DNA of 64,000 bases, from contig NZ_JAAWWK010000003.1 in NCBI RefSeq assembly GCF_012272835.1, forward strand, positions 62,001 to 126,000, written 5' to 3'. The DNA is from Spongiibacter thalassae (GTDB lineage: Bacteria > Pseudomonadota > Gammaproteobacteria > Pseudomonadales > Spongiibacteraceae). The notes below the pieces were generated by a model, which was not told the DNA's origin, did no database searches, and saw only the letters and a list, made by a program, of their open reading frames with translations. Positions 50,485 through 59,055 of the stretch are shown one piece after another. Each line of letters opens with the position of its first letter. The first letter of the stretch is position 1. Made by a program: the position numbers and the translations under genes.

Positions 50485-51462
50485 ATGTCCTCATCGGCTG
50501 AGATTTTAAGTCAGGCCTTTACCTTGGGGTATACCTATACCCGCACCACGGGCCCTGTTGTCGGGCAGTTTCTCACGGGGCTGCGTTCGCGCAAAGTCCT
50601 CGGCATCAAGGGTAGCGACGGCAAGGTGCTGATGCCGCCGGTGGAATACGACCCCCATACCGCAGAGGCCCTGTCTGAGTTTGTCGATGTTGCCGACTGC
50701 GGCACGGTCACCACCTGGGCCTGGGTTAGCCAGCCGCGCAAGGCCCACCCCAGTGACAAACCCTTTGCCTGGGCGTTGATTACTCTCGACGGTGCCGATA
50801 CGCCAATGCTGCACTGGGTGGACGCGGGTGAGATCAGTGCAATGAAAACCGGTATGCGGGTAAAGGTGCGCTGGGCGGCCCAGACCAAGGGGCTTATCGG
50901 CGACATCAATGGATTTGTTCCCGAGGATATGGACTTGACCACGGAGCTGGAGGAGAACACCAGCACCGAGCCGGTTACCGGCATCGATGCACCGAGCTAT
51001 CTGACTTATAACTTTACCGCCGGGGGCGCTACGGCGCGTTATCTGGCTAAGCTTAAGCAGGGCAAGCTCGTGGGTCAACGCTGCCCCTCGTGCAGCAATG
51101 TCTATATCCCGCCACGGGGTTCCTGTGCGGCCTGCGGTGTTGCCACCACTGACGAAGTGGAATTGACTGACAAGGCCACAGTGGAGTCTTTCACCATTGT
51201 CCACATTCCTATTCCCAATAATCCGATCAAGCCGCCGTACGTCATTGCCAACCTGGTGCTCGACGGCGCCAATATCAGTTTTCTGCACCTGCTGAGCGAA
51301 TGTAATAACAGCGATGTGCGCATTGGCATGCGTGTACAGGCGGTGTGGAAGCCCGCGGAGGAGTGGGGCTACGCCATGGAAAATATTTTGTACTTCAAGC
51401 CATTGGACGAACCGGATGTGCCCGTGGACCAAATTGGCAAACTCGCCGAAGGAGGGCGTTAA
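50485..51462 (+). CDS. Tandem DUF35 (rubredoxin-like zinc ribbon plus OB-fold) protein
   Basis: The 325-residue protein has two DUF35 units. The second (about 182-310) has a zinc ribbon with Cys200, Cys203, Cys214 and Cys217 (RCPSCSNVYIPPRGSCAACG) and an OB domain with FTIVHIPIPNN. The first (about 22-145) keeps the OB part (WAWVSQPRKAH) but its ribbon has lost the cysteines. DUF35 proteins partner with thiolase-fold enzymes and bind acyl-CoA; in steroid degraders one forms an aldolase with Ltp2. The next gene is such a thiolase-fold protein, 1 base away, so a complex is likely. Confidence 0.82.
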   Translation: MSSSAEILSQAFTLGYTYTRTTGPVVGQFLTGLRSRKVLGIKGSDGKVLMPPVEYDPHTAEALSEFVDVADCGTVTTWAWVSQPRKAHPSDKPFAWALITLDGADTPMLHWVDAGEISAMKTGMRVKVRWAAQTKGLIGDINGFVPEDMDLTTELEENTSTEPVTGIDAPSYLTYNFTAGGATARYLAKLKQGKLVGQRCPSCSNVYIPPRGSCAACGVATTDEVELTDKATVESFTIVHIPIPNNPIKPPYVIANLVLDGANISFLHLLSECNNSDVRIGMRVQAVWKPAEEWGYAMENILYFKPLDEPDVPVDQIGKLAEGGR

Positions 51463-51463
51463 G

Positions 51464-52522
51464 ATGCGCGATATCGCCATAGTGGCCTTTGCCCAATCGA
51501 ACTGCGTTCGCGATGCGGGTGCGAAAAATGAAGTTGAATTGATTATGCCGGTGCTCACAGAGGTGTTTGCCCAGGCCGGTATTAACAGTGCTCAGGATGT
51601 AGATTTCACCTGTTCCGGCAGCTGTGACTACCAGCAGGGCGCAGCCTTTGCCTTTGTCGCTGGTGTTGATGCCCTCGGCGCGGTACCGCCGATAAAAGAG
51701 TCTCATGTTGAAATGGACGCCGCCTGGGCACTCTACGAAGCCTGGCTGAAAATGCAGGCGGGGGACGCCGAGTCGGCACTGATTTATGGTTTTGGCAAAT
51801 CTTCGCCTGGTGAACTACCCATCGTACTGTCGCAACAACTTGACCCCTATTACCTGGCGCCCCTGTGGGTAGACACCATTGCCTTTGCGGCGATGCAGGC
51901 CCGCTATATGCTCGATCAGGGTTTGATTACCGAACGGGATATGGCCGAGGTGGTTGCTCGCTCGCGGCGTAACGCCATGAATAACCCCCACGCCCAGTTA
52001 AAGGCTGAGGTCAGCGCCGACCAACTGCTGACAGAAGCCCACTATGAGGCGCCGCTGCGTCGCCACGATTGCTGTCCGGTTTCCGATGGCGCTTGCGCGA
52101 TGATCGTATGCACAGTCGAGAAAGCCCGTGAATGGGGCAAGCCCTACGCGGTAATTAAAGGCATCGATCATCGTATCGAAACCCACCATATAGGTTCACG
52201 GGATCTCGCCCGTTCTGTGTCTGTTGAGCAGTCGGCGCAGGCGCTTGGAGTGAGCAATGGGCCGGTCGATATCGCCGAACTGTATGCGCCATTCAGCCAT
52301 CAGGAAATTGTGCTCAGTCGCGCTTTGGGGCTGGACGAGCGTACGGTGGTTAACCCTTCCGGGGGCGTGCTCGCGGGCAATGTCATGATGGCCTCGGGTC
52401 TGTCTCGCATTGGTGAAGTGGCGATGCGCCTGATTCGCAAAGAGGGACGGCGGGGAGTCGCCCATGCGACCTCTGGGCCGTGCCTGCAACAAAACCTGCT
52501 TACCGTATTGGAGGCCGAATAA
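51464..52522 (+). CDS. Thiolase-fold (SCP2/Ltp-like) protein lacking the usual catalytic residues
   Basis: The 352-residue protein has the SCP2-type thiolase fold, seen in HDCCPVSDGACAMIV and NPSGGVLAGN. The nucleophile Cys position appears to be Asp85 (SHVEMDAAWAL) and the GHP histidine is replaced (GNV, 305-307), so thiolytic cleavage is unlikely. It may be a non-catalytic or aldolase-type partner. The start is ATG 51464, just after the DUF35 stop, and the stop overlaps the next thiolase start (TAATG). Confidence 0.85.
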   Translation: MRDIAIVAFAQSNCVRDAGAKNEVELIMPVLTEVFAQAGINSAQDVDFTCSGSCDYQQGAAFAFVAGVDALGAVPPIKESHVEMDAAWALYEAWLKMQAGDAESALIYGFGKSSPGELPIVLSQQLDPYYLAPLWVDTIAFAAMQARYMLDQGLITERDMAEVVARSRRNAMNNPHAQLKAEVSADQLLTEAHYEAPLRRHDCCPVSDGACAMIVCTVEKAREWGKPYAVIKGIDHRIETHHIGSRDLARSVSVEQSAQALGVSNGPVDIAELYAPFSHQEIVLSRALGLDERTVVNPSGGVLAGNVMMASGLSRIGEVAMRLIRKEGRRGVAHATSGPCLQQNLLTVLEAE

Positions 52523-53685
52523 TGGCTCAACTTGCTGCTGTGGTCGGTGTCGGCCAAACCAAATATAAAACCAAGCGCAAAGATGTTTCGATTGCCGGTC
52601 TGGTGCGAGAAGCTGCCCAAAACGCGCTGGATGACGCGGGCCTGTGCTGGAACGATATCGATGCCGTAATTCTCGGCAAAGCGCCGGATATGTTTGAGGG
52701 CGTGATTATGCCCGAGCTCTATTTGACCGACGCCCTTGGTTGCAATGGCAAGCCCATGCTGAGGGTGCACACCGCCGGTTCCGTGGGCGGCTCTACCGCT
52801 ATAGTGGCCGCGTCCTATGTGCAGAGCGGCGTGTTCAAGCGTATTTTAACGGTGTCCTTCGAGAAGCAGTCGGAGTCCAATGCCATGTGGGCATTGTCGA
52901 ATCCGCAACCGTTCTCACCTCACCTGAATGCCGGTGCCGGCGGGTATTTCGCGCCGATAATTCGCGAGTATGTGCGCCGCGCCAATGCGCCCACCGATGC
53001 GGGTATCAAAGTTGCGGTAAAAGACCGCTTACATGGCGCGCGCAATCCCCTGGCGCATTTGCAGCTTGGTGAAATTACCATGCAGGAAGTGGCGGACAGC
53101 CCGATGCTCTGGGAGCCACTGCGCTTCCTTGAAGCCTGCCCGTCATCTGACGGTGCCTGCGCGATGGTGATTGCCAACGAAGAACTCGCCGGGCAATCAC
53201 CGGGCAAGCCTGCGTGGATTCGCGGCTGTGCAATGCGCTCGGAGCCGACCATGTACGCTGGACGGGAGCAGGTTAGTCCGCAAGCGGGTATCGATTGTGC
53301 GAAAGATGTATATCGTCAGGCAGGTATACACCACCCTCGCAAGGACTTTGACTGCGCCGAAATCTATGTGCCGTTTTCCTGGTACGAGCCCATGTGGCTG
53401 GAAAATCTCGGTTTCGCCGATGAAGGCAAGGGCTGGGAACTGACCATGAGCGGTGCGACGTCGCTGGACGAAGGCGGCGACATTCCGTGGAATTGCTCCG
53501 GCGGGGTGTTGTCGTCAAACCCTATCGGAGCCTCCGGAATGATTCGTTTTGCCGAAGCGGCCCAGCAGGTACGCGGGCTTGCTGGCGGGCATCAGGTCGA
53601 TGGCGCAAAAACCGCCCTCGGCCACGCCTACGGTGGCGGTGCGCAGTTTTTCTCAATGTGGGTGGTGAGCGCCGACAAGCACTGA
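52522..53685 (+). CDS. Second thiolase-fold (SCP2/Ltp-like) protein
   Basis: The 387-residue protein begins MAQLAAVVGVGQTKYKTKR and aligns with lipid-transfer-type thiolases. By alignment the catalytic Cys position reads Ser87 (HTAGSVGGSTAI), the GHP motif reads SNP (332-334), and the C-terminal CxG region reads HAYGGG with Tyr370. All three classical thiolase residues are therefore missing, as in Ltp2-type retro-aldolases. It is coupled to the preceding thiolase gene, and the pair plus DUF35 probably form one complex. Confidence 0.85.
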   Translation: MAQLAAVVGVGQTKYKTKRKDVSIAGLVREAAQNALDDAGLCWNDIDAVILGKAPDMFEGVIMPELYLTDALGCNGKPMLRVHTAGSVGGSTAIVAASYVQSGVFKRILTVSFEKQSESNAMWALSNPQPFSPHLNAGAGGYFAPIIREYVRRANAPTDAGIKVAVKDRLHGARNPLAHLQLGEITMQEVADSPMLWEPLRFLEACPSSDGACAMVIANEELAGQSPGKPAWIRGCAMRSEPTMYAGREQVSPQAGIDCAKDVYRQAGIHHPRKDFDCAEIYVPFSWYEPMWLENLGFADEGKGWELTMSGATSLDEGGDIPWNCSGGVLSSNPIGASGMIRFAEAAQQVRGLAGGHQVDGAKTALGHAYGGGAQFFSMWVVSADKH

Positions 53686-53850: not shown

Positions 53851-55482
53851 ATGAGTATGCATTTCAACCTAGCCGATCTGTTTGAAGCCGTTGCCGACAA
53901 GGTGCCGGAGCGAGAGGCTCTGGTCTGTGGCGACAGCCGCTCAACCTTCAGCGAACTCGATCGCGGTGCAAATCGCATGGCGCACTATTTGCGCAGCCGG
54001 GGTGTTGCGGCGGGGGATCATGTTGGTCTGTATATGTATAACTGCAACGAATACCTTGAGGCGATGTTGGCCTGCTTCAAAATTCGCGCAGTGCCGATCA
54101 ATGTTAACTACCGCTACGTCAACGACGAGCTGCTGTATATCTTTGACAATGCCGATATGGTGGCCTGTATTCACCATCGCGAGTTTGTACCCCATATTGC
54201 CAGAGTGCGTGACGGTGCGGAAAAATTGCGTTTGTTCGTCGCGGTTGATGACAACAGTGGCGAAGACCTTGCGGCCATTGGTGCGGTGGACTATGCCGAG
54301 GCGGCCGCGGGGCAGAGCGACGCCCGCGACTTTGGCGAGCGCGCCGACGATGACTATTTTGTGCTGTACACCGGCGGAACAACGGGCATGCCCAAGGGCG
54401 TAATGTGGCCGCACAAAAACGTCTTTTTTGCGGCGATGGGCGGTGGTGGTCACTTCTCGCCGCTGGGGCCCTGTACCACCCCTGAAGATATTCGTGAGCG
54501 GGTGGGCGAACATCCCCTGGTGGGTATTGCACTGGCACCCCTGATGCACGGCGCGTCCTGGTGGTATGCCTGTATTCAGCTGTTGGCCGGCAATAAATTG
54601 GTACTCAACCACAACCGCTCCTTTGACGGTGAGCAGGTCTGGCAGATTGTGGCCGACGAAAAGGTCAATGCGGTACAGATTGTTGGCGACGCGATGGCGA
54701 TCCCCTTACTCGATGCGCTGGACGCCAACCCCGATCGCTGGGATCTCAGCGCGGTGTTCAATGTGGGTTCCGGCGGCGCGATTTTCTCCGACGCCAAGCA
54801 GGACGCTTTCAAACGCCATTTCCCCAATGTGTTTATCACCAATGCCTTTGGTTCCTCCGAGGGCGGACAAATGGGAATGGACAATGGCAGTCGCAAGAAT
54901 ACGACTGGCTTGGGTAATGTCAGCCGTACCGATTATATGGACGTGATAATCGACGAACCCGATCAGCCCCGTCGTCATGCCAAACCAGGGGAAACCGGTA
55001 TCTTCGCGCGGTCGGGTTATATCCCGCTGGGTTATTACAACGACCCGGAAAAAACCGCTAAAACCTTTGTCGAGGTGGATGGTAAAACCTGGCTCCTCAC
55101 CGGGGATGCCGCAACTTTGGAAGAGGATAACTCCATTACGGTATTCGGACGGGGTTCAAACTGCATCAACAGTGGCGGCGAGAAAATATTCCCGGAAGAA
55201 GTGGAGGACGCCCTTAAAGCCCATGAAGGGGTGTTCGACGCGCTGGTGGTGGGTGTGCCGGATGAACGTTGGGGCAGCCGGGTTTCGGCGGTTATTCAAG
55301 CCCGCGCCGGTGTCCAGCTCGACCTGGCCAGTGTTCAGGAGCATTGCCGCAAGCATATCGCCGGTTACAAGGTGCCCCGTGAAATTCACCTGATCGAAGT
55401 GGTACCGCGTGCGCCCAGTGGCAAGCCCGATTACAAAACGGCGAAGGCCTTTGCCCTCGCGGGCGACGGTCGCGTCGTCTGA
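53851..55482 (+). CDS. Acyl-CoA synthetase (AMP-forming, FadD-like)
   Basis: The 543-residue ANL-superfamily enzyme activates a carboxylic acid to its CoA ester. The P-loop YTGGTTGMPKGVMWPHKN is at about 173-190, and the C-terminal part has NCINSGGEKIFPEEVE and the catalytic Lys525 in PSGKPDYKTAK. I choose ATG 53851 (MSMHFNLADLFEAVAD) as the family N terminus over an upstream frame. The substrate is unknown but, from the neighbours, is probably a branched or cyclic acid. Confidence 0.92.
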   Translation: MSMHFNLADLFEAVADKVPEREALVCGDSRSTFSELDRGANRMAHYLRSRGVAAGDHVGLYMYNCNEYLEAMLACFKIRAVPINVNYRYVNDELLYIFDNADMVACIHHREFVPHIARVRDGAEKLRLFVAVDDNSGEDLAAIGAVDYAEAAAGQSDARDFGERADDDYFVLYTGGTTGMPKGVMWPHKNVFFAAMGGGGHFSPLGPCTTPEDIRERVGEHPLVGIALAPLMHGASWWYACIQLLAGNKLVLNHNRSFDGEQVWQIVADEKVNAVQIVGDAMAIPLLDALDANPDRWDLSAVFNVGSGGAIFSDAKQDAFKRHFPNVFITNAFGSSEGGQMGMDNGSRKNTTGLGNVSRTDYMDVIIDEPDQPRRHAKPGETGIFARSGYIPLGYYNDPEKTAKTFVEVDGKTWLLTGDAATLEEDNSITVFGRGSNCINSGGEKIFPEEVEDALKAHEGVFDALVVGVPDERWGSRVSAVIQARAGVQLDLASVQEHCRKHIAGYKVPREIHLIEVVPRAPSGKPDYKTAKAFALAGDGRVV

Positions 55483-55538: not shown

Positions 55539-56354
55539 ATGCCCACTGAACTGCCCATTAGCACGGCAAACTGTATTGTCGAACAGGACGGCCACGTATT
55601 AATCGTTACCCTGAACCGCCCCGAGGCCAAAAACGCCTTTAGCCCGGAAATGCTGCTGGGCATGTACCGGGCGTGGCGTCTGCTCGACGAAGACGACAAT
55701 CTTCGCTGCGCTATTCTCACCGCCAACGGCGATACGTTTTGTGCAGGAATGGACCTCAAGGCTGGGGAAAACCAGCGCAGCACAGAGGAATTTATGAATG
55801 TGATGGCCACCGTGCCCAATGTGCATTGGCAGGCATTGCTGCGGGAGAACCGCCCCTGTAAACCGCTCATCCTTGCCGTTGAGGGTTATGCCCTTGCGGG
55901 GGGGACTGAAATTCTACAAGGCACTGATATTCGGGTTGCCGCTGAAGATGCCGTTTTCGGTGTGACTGAGGTCAGTCGCGGCCTGTACCCAATGTCCGGG
56001 TCAACTATTCGTCTGCGCAAGCAGATTCCGTACTGTATCGCCGCCGAAATCCTGTTGCTGGGTGAGCACGTCAGTGCACAACAGGCTCTGCAAATCGGCC
56101 TGATAAACCGCGTTGTTCCCAAGGGAGATACCCTCGCGGAAGCGAAAAAAATCGCGGAAAAAATTTGTGCCAATGGCCCCCTTGCGGTGAAGGCGGTGAC
56201 GCGCTCGCTGCGGGAACACACCGAACACCTTAACGAAGACGAAGCTATGCAGCGCTCCGATGAACTTGCCGGACCGGTGTTTGCGTCCAGGGATGCCAAG
56301 GAAGGAATGCGTGCATTCAAGGAAAAGCGCCCCGCCCAATTTGTCGGAGAATAA
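55539..56354 (+). CDS. Enoyl-CoA hydratase/isomerase (crotonase) family protein
   Basis: The 271-residue crotonase has the two oxyanion-hole segments CAGMDLKAG and GYALAGGTEILQG. The first catalytic Glu position is kept in FGVTEVSRGL, but the second is not obvious (PMSGST), so activity may be hydration or a variant such as isomerisation or hydrolysis. AGGAGC precedes the ATG. It sits between the synthetase and the CoA-transferase. Confidence 0.9.
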   Translation: MPTELPISTANCIVEQDGHVLIVTLNRPEAKNAFSPEMLLGMYRAWRLLDEDDNLRCAILTANGDTFCAGMDLKAGENQRSTEEFMNVMATVPNVHWQALLRENRPCKPLILAVEGYALAGGTEILQGTDIRVAAEDAVFGVTEVSRGLYPMSGSTIRLRKQIPYCIAAEILLLGEHVSAQQALQIGLINRVVPKGDTLAEAKKIAEKICANGPLAVKAVTRSLREHTEHLNEDEAMQRSDELAGPVFASRDAKEGMRAFKEKRPAQFVGE

Positions 56355-56422: not shown

Positions 56423-57577
56423 ATGGCGGGTCCACTGAGTGGTCTGCGGGTAGTTGAAGTGGCCGGTGTCGGCCCCGGGCCATACGCGTGTATGCTGTTG
56501 TCTGACCTCGGCGCGGAAGTTGTACGTATTGATCGCAGCAGCGGCGGCATGGGGAATATCAGCGGAGATGTGACCCATCGCGGGCGCCGCTCCATTGTCA
56601 TCGACCTGAAGCGTGAGCAAGGGCTTGCTGCTGCCCGGCGCTTGATTGACAGTGCCGATGTACTGGTTGAGGGCTTTCGTCCGGGGGTGATGGAAAAGCT
56701 CGGTCTTGGCCCCGATACTTTCACCGAAAGTAATCCCGGTCTGATCTATGGACGAATGACCGGCTGGGGTCAATATGGGCCGCTGGCGCAGCGGGCCGGA
56801 CACGACCTGAATTATATCGCCATAAGCGGTGTGTTAGGTGCGATGGGTGGGGCCGATCAACCACCGCCGGTACCGTTGAACGTGGTAGGTGATCTCGGTG
56901 GCGGGTCGATGTTTCTGATTATGGGCATACTCTCGGCACTGTATGAGCGGGGGCGCTCTGGCCTGGGACAGGTTGTGGACGCCGCGATCTGTGACGGTGC
57001 CTCGTCGCTGATGACCACGGTACACAGCTTGCAAAACGTTGGCTTTTGGGAGTCCGAGCGGGAGAGCAATATCCTCGACGGTGGTGCTCCGTTTTATCGA
57101 AACTATCCCTGTAAGGACGGCCGGTATTTGTCGCTGGGCGCGATAGAGCCGCCCTTTTATGCGGAACTGTTGCGCCTCCTCGAGCTCGACTTTGGCGGTA
57201 CTGACTACAGCGTACAAATGAACAAGGCGCTGTGGCCCCGGCAACAGGCGGAGATCGCCGCACGAATCCGCGAGAAAACCCAGGCGGAGTGGTGTGATAT
57301 TTTTGCCGACAGTGATGCCTGTGTTGCACCGGTGCTGGACAGTACGCAGGCCGTCAGGCACCCCCACAATCGTGCCCGCGGTAATCTCACTATGCACGAC
57401 GGCGTTTTGCAAGCCGAGGTAGCACCGCGCTTGTCGCGAACACCCGGGGCAATCCAGTCGCCCCCGGTCACGGCAGGTTGTCACAGTAGCGAGGTGCTTG
57501 GCGAATTGGGTTATAGCGATAGCGATATTCAAGCGCTGCTGAGTAGTGGAGCCGTGCACGGGGTGAAGGAATCATGA
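56423..57577 (+). CDS. CaiB/BaiF family CoA-transferase (alpha-methylacyl-CoA racemase-like)
   Basis: The 384-residue type III CoA-transferase family member begins GPLSGLRVVEVAGVGPGPYACMLLSDLGAEV and has the active Asp in GLGQVVDAAICDG (about residue 186). It is closest in layout to alpha-methylacyl-CoA racemases, which invert 2-methyl acyl-CoA stereocentres and are needed for branched or sterol side chains. Family members can instead move CoA between acids. Its end overlaps the nitroreductase start by 4 bases. Confidence 0.9.
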   Translation: MAGPLSGLRVVEVAGVGPGPYACMLLSDLGAEVVRIDRSSGGMGNISGDVTHRGRRSIVIDLKREQGLAAARRLIDSADVLVEGFRPGVMEKLGLGPDTFTESNPGLIYGRMTGWGQYGPLAQRAGHDLNYIAISGVLGAMGGADQPPPVPLNVVGDLGGGSMFLIMGILSALYERGRSGLGQVVDAAICDGASSLMTTVHSLQNVGFWESERESNILDGGAPFYRNYPCKDGRYLSLGAIEPPFYAELLRLLELDFGGTDYSVQMNKALWPRQQAEIAARIREKTQAEWCDIFADSDACVAPVLDSTQAVRHPHNRARGNLTMHDGVLQAEVAPRLSRTPGAIQSPPVTAGCHSSEVLGELGYSDSDIQALLSSGAVHGVKES

Positions 57578-58251
57578 GTTTTTCACGACCCTCGACCTTT
57601 GCTGACGTTGTTCGCCATCGGCGCTCGGTGCGTGGTTTTCTATCGCAACCAGTGCCCAAAGACATTCTTGAGCGGGTATTTGAACTGGCTCAAACCGCGC
57701 CGTCGAACTGTAATACCCAGCCCTGGTTTTGCGCGCTGGTGAGCGGTGACAAGCTGGAGACACTGCGGGAGAGGATTCCCGCAGCCTTCACTGCGGGGGA
57801 GTGGTCGATGGATTTCTCCTACGACGGGCAATACCAGGGGGTCTACCGCGAGCGTCAGACACAGGCCGCCGCTGAACTTTATCGCGCAGTGGGCGCTCGC
57901 CGAGAAGACAAGGCACTTCGGCATAAGCAATTTATGCGTAATTTCAGTTTTTTTGGTGCACCCCACGTTGCTTTCATCTTTTTGCCGGAACCCTTTGGTC
58001 TGCGCGAAGCCGCAGACTGCGGCATGTTTGCCCAGAACCTGATGCTCGCCCTGAGCGCAGAGGGTCTGGCCAGTTGTCCGCAGACGGCTTTGAGTTTTAC
58101 CGCCGACCCGGTTCGCGAAGTACTGGGCTTGAGTGGGGAATACCGACTGCTATTTGGCCTTTCACTGGGTTATGAAGACCGCAGCGACCCCGCGAATCAA
58201 TGCCGTACTGAGCGCGCGGGGGTTGGCGAGGCGGTGGTGTTCTACGACTAA
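57574..58251 (+). CDS. Nitroreductase family flavoprotein
   Basis: The 225-residue FMN protein begins with RRSVRGFLSQPVPKDILERV and APSNCNTQPWFCA, the FMN-binding signature, and ends with GLSLGYEDRSDPANQ. Members reduce nitro groups, quinones, or unsaturated bonds with NAD(P)H. Coupling to the CoA-transferase gene (ATGA) suggests reduction of an unsaturated CoA intermediate, but this is inference. Confidence 0.9.
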   Translation: MSFSRPSTFADVVRHRRSVRGFLSQPVPKDILERVFELAQTAPSNCNTQPWFCALVSGDKLETLRERIPAAFTAGEWSMDFSYDGQYQGVYRERQTQAAAELYRAVGARREDKALRHKQFMRNFSFFGAPHVAFIFLPEPFGLREAADCGMFAQNLMLALSAEGLASCPQTALSFTADPVREVLGLSGEYRLLFGLSLGYEDRSDPANQCRTERAGVGEAVVFYD

Positions 58252-58287: not shown

Positions 58288-59055
58288 ATGAGTGATACCG
58301 TACTGCAACAACTCGATCCACAGGGCGTGTTGACCCTGACCCTGAATCGTCCTGACAAGAAAAATGCGTTCAGCAACGAACAGTGGCGGACTTTTCGAGC
58401 AGCCTTGCTTTCAGCACAAGAGGACCCCGCCGTGGCCTGCGTGCTGGTTACCGGGGCGGGTAAGGATTTTTCCAGCGGCGTAGATTTAAATGATTTTAGT
58501 CAAGGCAATGAGGAACACCCCTTTGAAGCCGCAGCGCGGACATTGGTGGATTTCGACAAGCCAGTAGTCTCCGCTGCCAGGGGGATTGCGGTAGGCGGCG
58601 GCGCTACCCTGTTGCTGCACACAGACGTTGTCTACGTGGGTGACAGTTTGAGACTGCGTTTTCCGTTTACCGCTCTGGGGCTGGTGCCGGAGTGGGGAAG
58701 TAGCTATCAGCTACAGGCCATCATCGGCGCGCGCCGGGCGGCAGAGTTGATGTACAGTTCAGAGTGGCTGGGGTCGGAAAAAGCGGTGGACTACGGTATC
58801 GCCAGTGCCGCCTTTAGCGACGACGAAGTGTTGCCAGCGGCGCTGGCCAAAGCTCGGGAAATTGCTCAATGGCCGATCAGCTCACTGGTGGAAACCAAAC
58901 GCCTGCTGCGGGATGTGCACCGTCAGCGTATCCATGCGGCGATAGATGCTGAGCAGGCCGGTATGGCTCGCCTCGCCGGGACCGCAGAAAATATCGAAGC
59001 GGTGATGGCCATAATGGAAAAACGCGCACCGGATTTTAGCCAGTTCCGGCGCTAG
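58288..59055 (+). CDS. Second enoyl-CoA hydratase/isomerase family protein
   Basis: The 255-residue crotonase has FSSGVDLNDFSQG and the second oxyanion segment ARGIAVGGGATLLLH. The FTALGLVPEWGSSYQL segment keeps one candidate catalytic Glu in the PEWGSS position, as in enoyl-CoA isomerases. It is likely the last gene of the catabolic cluster, 36 bases after the nitroreductase. Confidence 0.9.
   Translation: MSDTVLQQLDPQGVLTLTLNRPDKKNAFSNEQWRTFRAALLSAQEDPAVACVLVTGAGKDFSSGVDLNDFSQGNEEHPFEAAARTLVDFDKPVVSAARGIAVGGGATLLLHTDVVYVGDSLRLRFPFTALGLVPEWGSSYQLQAIIGARRAAELMYSSEWLGSEKAVDYGIASAAFSDDEVLPAALAKAREIAQWPISSLVETKRLLRDVHRQRIHAAIDAEQAGMARLAGTAENIEAVMAIMEKRAPDFSQFRR

Follow-up and report, generated by a model that had tools for sequence, protein, structure and literature searches.

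Two thiolase folds without a nucleophilic cysteine and paired DUF35 units in Spongiibacter thalassae: a probable Ltp3-Ltp4-type aldol-lyase set

What reaction can be expected of two thiolase-fold proteins that lack the thiolase nucleophile and are encoded beside a double DUF35 protein? The question is raised by three genes at positions 50485-53685 of a 64,000-nucleotide stretch of Spongiibacter thalassae DNA, called the window here. The set is real and strictly conserved, and sets of its kind have been described before at the gene level. It probably represents a heteromeric aldol-lyase of the Ltp3-Ltp4 type for the breakdown of C24-branched sterol side chains, together with a paired DUF35 scaffold; the complex, its activity and its substrate are what we infer. 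The three genes are the following.

50485-51462, plus strand: tandem DUF35 protein of the Rv3521 type, 325 residues, with the OB fold twice and the cysteines of a zinc ribbon confined to the C-terminal unit.
51464-52522, plus strand: thiolase fold A, Ltp4-like (PRK07937), 352 residues, with Glu83/Asp85 in place of the nucleophile, Asn306 in place of the GHP histidine and Tyr274 at the catalytic-Tyr position.
52522-53685, plus strand: thiolase fold B, Ltp3-like (PRK08313), 387 residues, with Gly86 in place of the nucleophile, Tyr282 where Ltp2 and Sal have their catalytic Tyr, and Asn333 in place of the GHP histidine.

Residue conservation was followed through 81 loci, comprising the window and 80 loci from named genome contigs (the best 80 of 533 relatives, a sample that leans to near ones). 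B is present in 78 loci, and two partial sequences were left out to give n = 76. B is a thiolase fold by sequence and scores 652.4 bits against the whole-protein NCBIfam model PRK08313 (cut-off 514). Gly86 of B stands opposite the nucleophilic cysteine of 6hsj, 7yvy and 7pxp and of a cysteine-bearing thiolase of the host genome. This glycine is found in 76/76 B sequences, all of which also share RVHTAGSVGGST without a change. A preliminary description of the locus had placed the nucleophile position at Ser87, which is the next residue. The position of the GHP histidine is taken by Asn333, an asparagine in all 74 B sequences that are ungapped there.

A scores 482.5 bits against the whole-protein NCBIfam model PRK07937 (cut-off 419). 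It is shorter than B and scores under the Pfam thiolase cut-offs; its predicted model has a thiolase fold and matches 6et9_C with a Z of 45.3, a root-mean-square deviation (rmsd) of 2.1 and 346 aligned positions. Gap-free alignments to 6esq and 7yvy put Glu83 opposite the nucleophilic cysteine. A gapped alignment puts Asp85 there, as first described, and Asp85 is plausible as the nucleophile position because a helix is predicted in the model from residue 86. Both acidic residues are present in 81/81 A sequences, and A has a conserved acidic loop. The motif ESHVEMD is identical in all 81, a set fetched partly via the peptide VEMDAAW. Without peptide selection the motif was found in 18/18 loci of the host's family (at least two of these genomes are also among the 81) and in 4/4 of the plasmid records examined (six found), two of which have Gly replacing the next Ala. 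Asn306 aligns with the GHP histidine; 73 of the 81 loci have Asn there and the other 8 have His.

An active thiolase is rejected because neither A nor B has a nucleophilic cysteine. Both also have Asn at the GHP histidine position, so that the two marks of an SCP2-type thiolase are missing. The alignments place no cysteine at the nucleophile position of either protein and the relatives agree, which upholds the initial view of two thiolase folds without this residue. The same view held that both lack the GHP histidine. This is borne out in the window, yet the eight A sequences with histidine depart from it.

A candidate catalytic residue is retained in B. Tyr282 is found in all 75 B sequences that are ungapped at this position. 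It was matched to the catalytic tyrosine of Ltp2 and Sal through an intermediate, the Ltp2-like protein of the host genome: Tyr282 aligns with the YDxF tyrosine of this protein, which aligns with Tyr294 of Ltp2 (6ok1) and with the YDCY motif of Sal (9myr). In the available part of PMC12329534, Tyr294 is the base and Tyr344 the acid of Ltp2, and Tyr302 and Cys304 are the corresponding residues of Sal. The equivalent position of A, residue 274, is Tyr in 35/81 and His in 46/81 loci.

The pocket loops are conserved above the rest of the protein in both thiolase folds. The values are 0.84-0.96 against 0.76 for the rest of B (33 sequences) and 0.80-0.95 against 0.67 for the rest of A (38 sequences). 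The selection peptide accounts in part for the conservation of the A nucleophile loop, the unselected part of which has a value of 0.84. Conserved loops in both proteins speak against A as a mere structural half, and the division into one active and one structural half that had been proposed is not settled. Both folds may instead be active, either in two steps or on two stereoisomers. This arrangement is compatible with an Ltp3-Ltp4-type lyase, and the Tyr or His found at the catalytic-Tyr position of A in 81/81 loci is in its favor. We consider it possible but rather doubtful, given the shorter length of A, its scores below the Pfam thiolase cut-offs and the division of position 274 between two residues. 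The NCBIfam description of A as a 'lipid-transfer protein' recalls an old name under which the pair would be non-catalytic lipid-transfer or sterol-binding proteins. Thiolase folds, recognized by sequence for B and by model for A, and conserved pocket loops stand against such a role, as does Ltp2, which is likewise named and is an aldolase. This explanation is scarcely credible.

We class A as Ltp4-like and B as Ltp3-like because the family models and the gene order fit the Rv3521-ltp4-ltp3 region. In Mycobacterium, the accessible text of PMC6429209 lists Rv3515c (fadD19), Rv3516 (echA19), Rv3521, Rv3522 (ltp4) and Rv3523 (ltp3) in this region. Saccharopolyspora hirsuta carries the Rv3521 homologue, ltp4 and ltp3 under the successive tags F1721_32655, F1721_32660 and F1721_32665 (PMC9782250 and PMC8708139, in the parts available). 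S. hirsuta lies outside the four Saccharopolyspora loci compared here, which have the order DUF35 tandem-A-B. The order Rv3521 type-ltp4-ltp3, with fadD19 and echA19 in the region, was found in the window and in relatives. In Rhodococcus rhodochrous, both ltp3 and ltp4 are reported to be essential if the side chains of C24-branched sterols are to be broken down. The available portion of a review (PMC6678751) describes Ltp3-Ltp4 as a heteromeric aldol-lyase that cleaves C24-C25 after activation by FadD19, desaturation, C28 carboxylation and hydration, and predicts an acid after cleavage.

The DUF35 protein contains two units. Pfam finds two OB_ChsH2_C stretches and a single zf-ChsH2, the latter in the C-terminal unit. 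The predicted model (22 sequences in the alignment) repeats an identical order of strands and helices within residues 9-146 and 166-306. A mean predicted local distance difference test score (pLDDT) of 88.4 with a predicted template modeling score (pTM) of 0.56, that is, high local confidence and a modest global score, suggests that the two units have no fixed mutual orientation in the lone chain. The best Foldseek match of the model is 6ok1_B, the DUF35 chain of the Ltp2-ChsH2 aldolase (E 4.1e-08). A residue-poor thiolase-fold pair, two DUF35 units and a closest DUF35 fold in Ltp2-ChsH2 support, at the level of sequence and models, the earlier suggestion of a heteromeric steroid-type aldolase as the best reading.

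A zinc C4 motif was detected in 0/79 N-terminal units and 35/81 C-terminal units by a strict CxxC-CxxC test that scores sites with Asp or His as absent. The zinc-free N-terminal unit is thus a trait of the whole sample, and an incomplete C4 motif is frequent in the C-terminal unit. Pfam, the predicted model and the motif counts agree with the initial description of a fused double DUF35 protein whose zinc cysteines are confined to the C-terminal unit. The idea that zinc in one DUF35 unit marks the active half is weakened by the absence of the C4 motif from 46/81 C-terminal units.

The gene order is nearly invariant. DUF35 gene(s), A and B follow each other in this order on one strand in 78/81 loci, and the remaining three (L089, L106 and L107) are cut off by the contig end behind A. 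Of the 81 loci, 79 have two DUF35 units, which are fused in 37 and encoded by separate genes in 42; only the second unit was detected in L101 and L104, where it adjoins the contig start. Fusion in 37/81 loci rejects the notion that a fused DUF35 protein is peculiar to the host genome. On a quick A+B tree (76 rows, 74 with known state) the fused or separate state changes at least five times. Two DUF35 units, joined or not, for every two thiolase folds argue for a one-to-one pairing in which each thiolase fold would have its own unit.

Genes of the Rv3521 type that adjoin ltp4 are described as 'hypothetical conserved', with DNA binding suggested, in the part of PMC9782250 that was available. Tandem DUF35 genes of actinobacterial plasmids (L156:3039-3968 and L157:2970-3989) are annotated as OB-fold nucleic acid binding domain proteins. 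For plasmid DUF35 genes that adjoin two thiolase genes, the nucleic-acid-binding annotation is probably misleading. The Rv3521-type proteins, so far hypothetical, gain a likely role in the set.

The combination of a thiolase-like pair with DUF35 is also found in PhlABC, and the locus could by analogy encode a Claisen-type acyltransferase complex that moves an acyl group. The layouts are alike in having two thiolase-superfamily subunits and DUF35. B has a PhlC match at E 3e-15, and the DUF35 tandem has a weak one to PhlB at E 0.0083. PhlC requires Cys88, a position held by Gly in all B sequences and by Glu83 and Asp85 in A, which makes an acyltransferase of this kind highly improbable.

A is present in 18/21 genomes of the host's family. 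Across a phylum-wide sample of 398 genomes, with up to five candidates per genome scored, only the host exceeds the PRK07937 cut-off. The window groups with Spongiibacter and Zhongshania inside a pseudomonadotal group on the quick tree, the deepest forks of which are weak (67); a recent transfer from Actinomycetota is not supported by this position. The related genome G399 (contigs C20 and C42; L050, L052 and L054) encodes a second A, 55% identical to that of the window, with its own DUF35 genes and B, and this is a diverged second set. One locus titled as a Klebsiella pneumoniae metagenome-assembled genome (MAG; L096) groups on the tree with Pseudomonadales and uncultured gammaproteobacterial MAGs, and its title or bin may be wrong.

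The same-strand run of genes that begins with the set extends to 59055 and continues with the following genes.

53851-55482, plus strand: FadD19-type acyl-coenzyme A (CoA) synthetase (PRK07798, 684.5 against a cut-off of 543).
55539-56354, plus strand: EchA19-type crotonase (PRK07799, 347.5 against a cut-off of 316).
56423-57577, plus strand: class III CoA-transferase.
57574-58251, plus strand: nitroreductase-family protein, which accompanies the set in 26/48 pseudomonadotal loci.
58288-59055, plus strand: second crotonase/enoyl-CoA hydratase family protein, which accompanies the set in 21/48 pseudomonadotal loci.

The EchA19 equivalog model gives the crotonase at 55539-56354 a score of 342.3 bits, under its cut-off of 400. 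Within the set, the DUF35 tandem and A are separated by one base, the A stop and B start overlap as TAATG, and GGAGG lies just upstream of both the A and B starts. The program-made list of open reading frames gave longer starts for A (51314) and B (52480); the internal ATGs were adopted with the support of homologues. Promoter and terminator scans gave no signal above chance level. The class III CoA-transferase is a candidate for re-thioesterifying the acid after cleavage.

These neighbors bear on the substrate. The same heteromeric retro-aldolase chemistry could act on another branched 3-hydroxyacyl-CoA, for example one derived from a bile acid, a hopanoid or an isoprenoid acid. Ltp2 and Sal differ in the chain length that they act on, and the CoA-transferase, nitroreductase and second crotonase are found in 0/30 actinobacterial loci at the score thresholds used. 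Set against this alternative are the FadD19- and EchA19-like neighbors in both phyla. These genes were found in the fetched flanks of 22/30 and 20/30 actinobacterial loci, respectively, and in many of these loci the trio lies near an opposite-strand FadD19-like gene and a same-strand EchA19-like gene. The steroid-ring genes of the host also count against it. So does the trio found in Sterolibacterium MAGs, in a genus with one member reported to use beta-sitosterol (PMC11061730, text available in part). We regard another substrate as unlikely.

The host genome has four KshA_C (PF19298) matches over the cut-off. Ring-type genes lie at 290000-309000 of contig C7 (L053), on the same contig as the window set and about 180 kb from it. 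Beside the best KshA_C match are a dioxygenase with 274.2 bits to biphenyl-diol dioxygenase and 269.7 bits to HsaC, both below cut-off, and an HsaA-like monooxygenase (365.4 against a cut-off of 450). Two further genes there exceed their cut-offs and are of the HsaF/HsaG kind, one for an acetaldehyde dehydrogenase and one for a 4-hydroxy-2-oxovalerate aldolase. Judged by sequence similarity, this KshA-, HsaC- and HsaA-like neighborhood is likely a 9,10-seco steroid ring cluster. Sponges have yielded steroid-degrading isolates of both Spongiibacteraceae and Halieaceae, according to the accessible part of PMC5790920. The host genome also has 25 cytochrome P450-family matches over cut-off, some of which are two pieces of one gene, and with the four KshA_C matches it is oxygenase-rich. 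A host thiolase fold at L139:8837-10473 has the motif YDGF and Ltp2 (6ok1_A) as its best match in the PDB, and is a second aldolase candidate in this genome. A small gene beside it has a weak DUF35 match of 18.2 bits.

Several points weigh against an Ltp3-Ltp4-type lyase of sterol side chains. The second catalytic residue of Ltp2 (Tyr344) or Sal (Cys304) is not kept in B, which has Asn333 and Pro284 at these positions. We take PRK07937 to be Ltp4 and PRK08313 to be Ltp3 from gene order and customary naming rather than from a comparison with the Rhodococcus proteins. FadD19- and EchA19-like genes were found in the fetched flanks of only 29/48 and 26/48 pseudomonadotal loci, incomplete contigs included. 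KshA_C also matches one of 14 control genomes, Corynebacterium glutamicum, below the cut-off. The carboxylase wanted by the published pathway is absent from the operon; the five carboxyltransferase matches of the genome lie elsewhere, and this search covered the host genome only. An A-B heterodimer is only one option, since the thiolase-superfamily subunits of PhlABC form homodimers.

With these points included, an Ltp3-Ltp4-type lyase remains the probable function, and a reaction sequence can be proposed. The FadD19-like and EchA19-like enzymes would activate and hydrate a C24-alkyl-branched sterol to give a tertiary 24-alcohol. Ordinary thiolysis would be unusable at this stage because a tertiary 24-alcohol is not oxidizable to a ketone. 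Tyr282 of the Ltp3-like subunit would deprotonate the alcohol, the C24-C25 bond would break and an acyl-CoA would be released. The Ltp4-like subunit would belong to the same complex, either in an A-B heterodimer or in a PhlABC-like arrangement where DUF35 links a homodimer of A to a homodimer of B, and every thiolase fold would be held by a DUF35 unit of its own. The base, the tertiary alcohol and the allotment of one DUF35 unit to each thiolase fold are suggested by these facts together with the Sal-Shy architecture, in which two DUF35 domains flank a central thiolase-fold dimer.

A more specific arrangement is offered tentatively. The complex might be an obligate four-lobe assembly in which the two thiolase folds are unlike each other and so are the two DUF35 units, each unit being dedicated to one thiolase and the N-terminal one being zinc-free throughout. 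Tyr282 of Ltp3 would share a composite active site with acidic residues of the Ltp4 loop that took the place of the nucleophile, and the Rv3521-type protein would be the missing subunit in both Actinomycetota and Pseudomonadota. We view this arrangement a little more cautiously than we otherwise would because the thiolase-superfamily subunits of PhlABC each pair with their own kind.

The layout had been thought undescribed. The available parts of the sources do not bear this out: Ltp3-Ltp4 is covered by the review (PMC6678751), the Rv3521-type gene beside ltp4 by PMC9782250 and a comparable complex, PhlABC, by PMC6392133. New here are the spread of the set in marine-type Gammaproteobacteria and the DUF35 pair as the likely third component, suggested by co-occurrence and fold. 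No statement that a DUF35 pair is a third part of Ltp3-Ltp4 was found among the papers listed by the literature searches, which left most subscription papers out of reach.

Among known systems, PhlABC and the archaeal thiolase/HMG-CoA synthase complex likewise join two different thiolase-superfamily subunits by DUF35. The solved PhlABC structure shows this link, with only PhlC residues taking part in the reaction and each kind of thiolase-superfamily subunit forming homodimers (PMC6392133, as far as its text was available). Unlike the window set, both of these complexes retain an active cysteine in the thiolase subunit. The second subunit of each resembles HMG-CoA synthase.

BbsAB benzoylsuccinyl-CoA thiolase has one kind of each subunit. 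The DUF35 tandem is matched by the BbsA model, and A and B by the BbsB model, with scores that in every case fall far short of the cut-off. The BbsAB sequence of 7pxp has a cysteine at the nucleophile position, unlike A and B.

Ltp2-ChsH2 (6ok1) and Sal-Shy (9myr) share with the window set a thiolase fold without a nucleophilic cysteine, a tyrosine at the catalytic position and a DUF35 partner. Sal-Shy, and similarly Ltp2-ChsH2, has one kind of thiolase chain and one of DUF35, compared with two of each as read from the genes here, and B has the second catalytic residue of neither. Ltp3-Ltp4 of Rhodococcus and Mycobacterium (Rv3523 and Rv3522) with Rv3521 is alike in family models, gene order and the FadD19- and EchA19-like genes nearby. 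The window set differs from this actinobacterial region in being gammaproteobacterial, in running in one direction and in the presence of a class III CoA-transferase, a nitroreductase and a second crotonase. It also has the full zinc C4 motif in its C-terminal DUF35 unit, which 27/37 fused relatives lack by the strict motif test.

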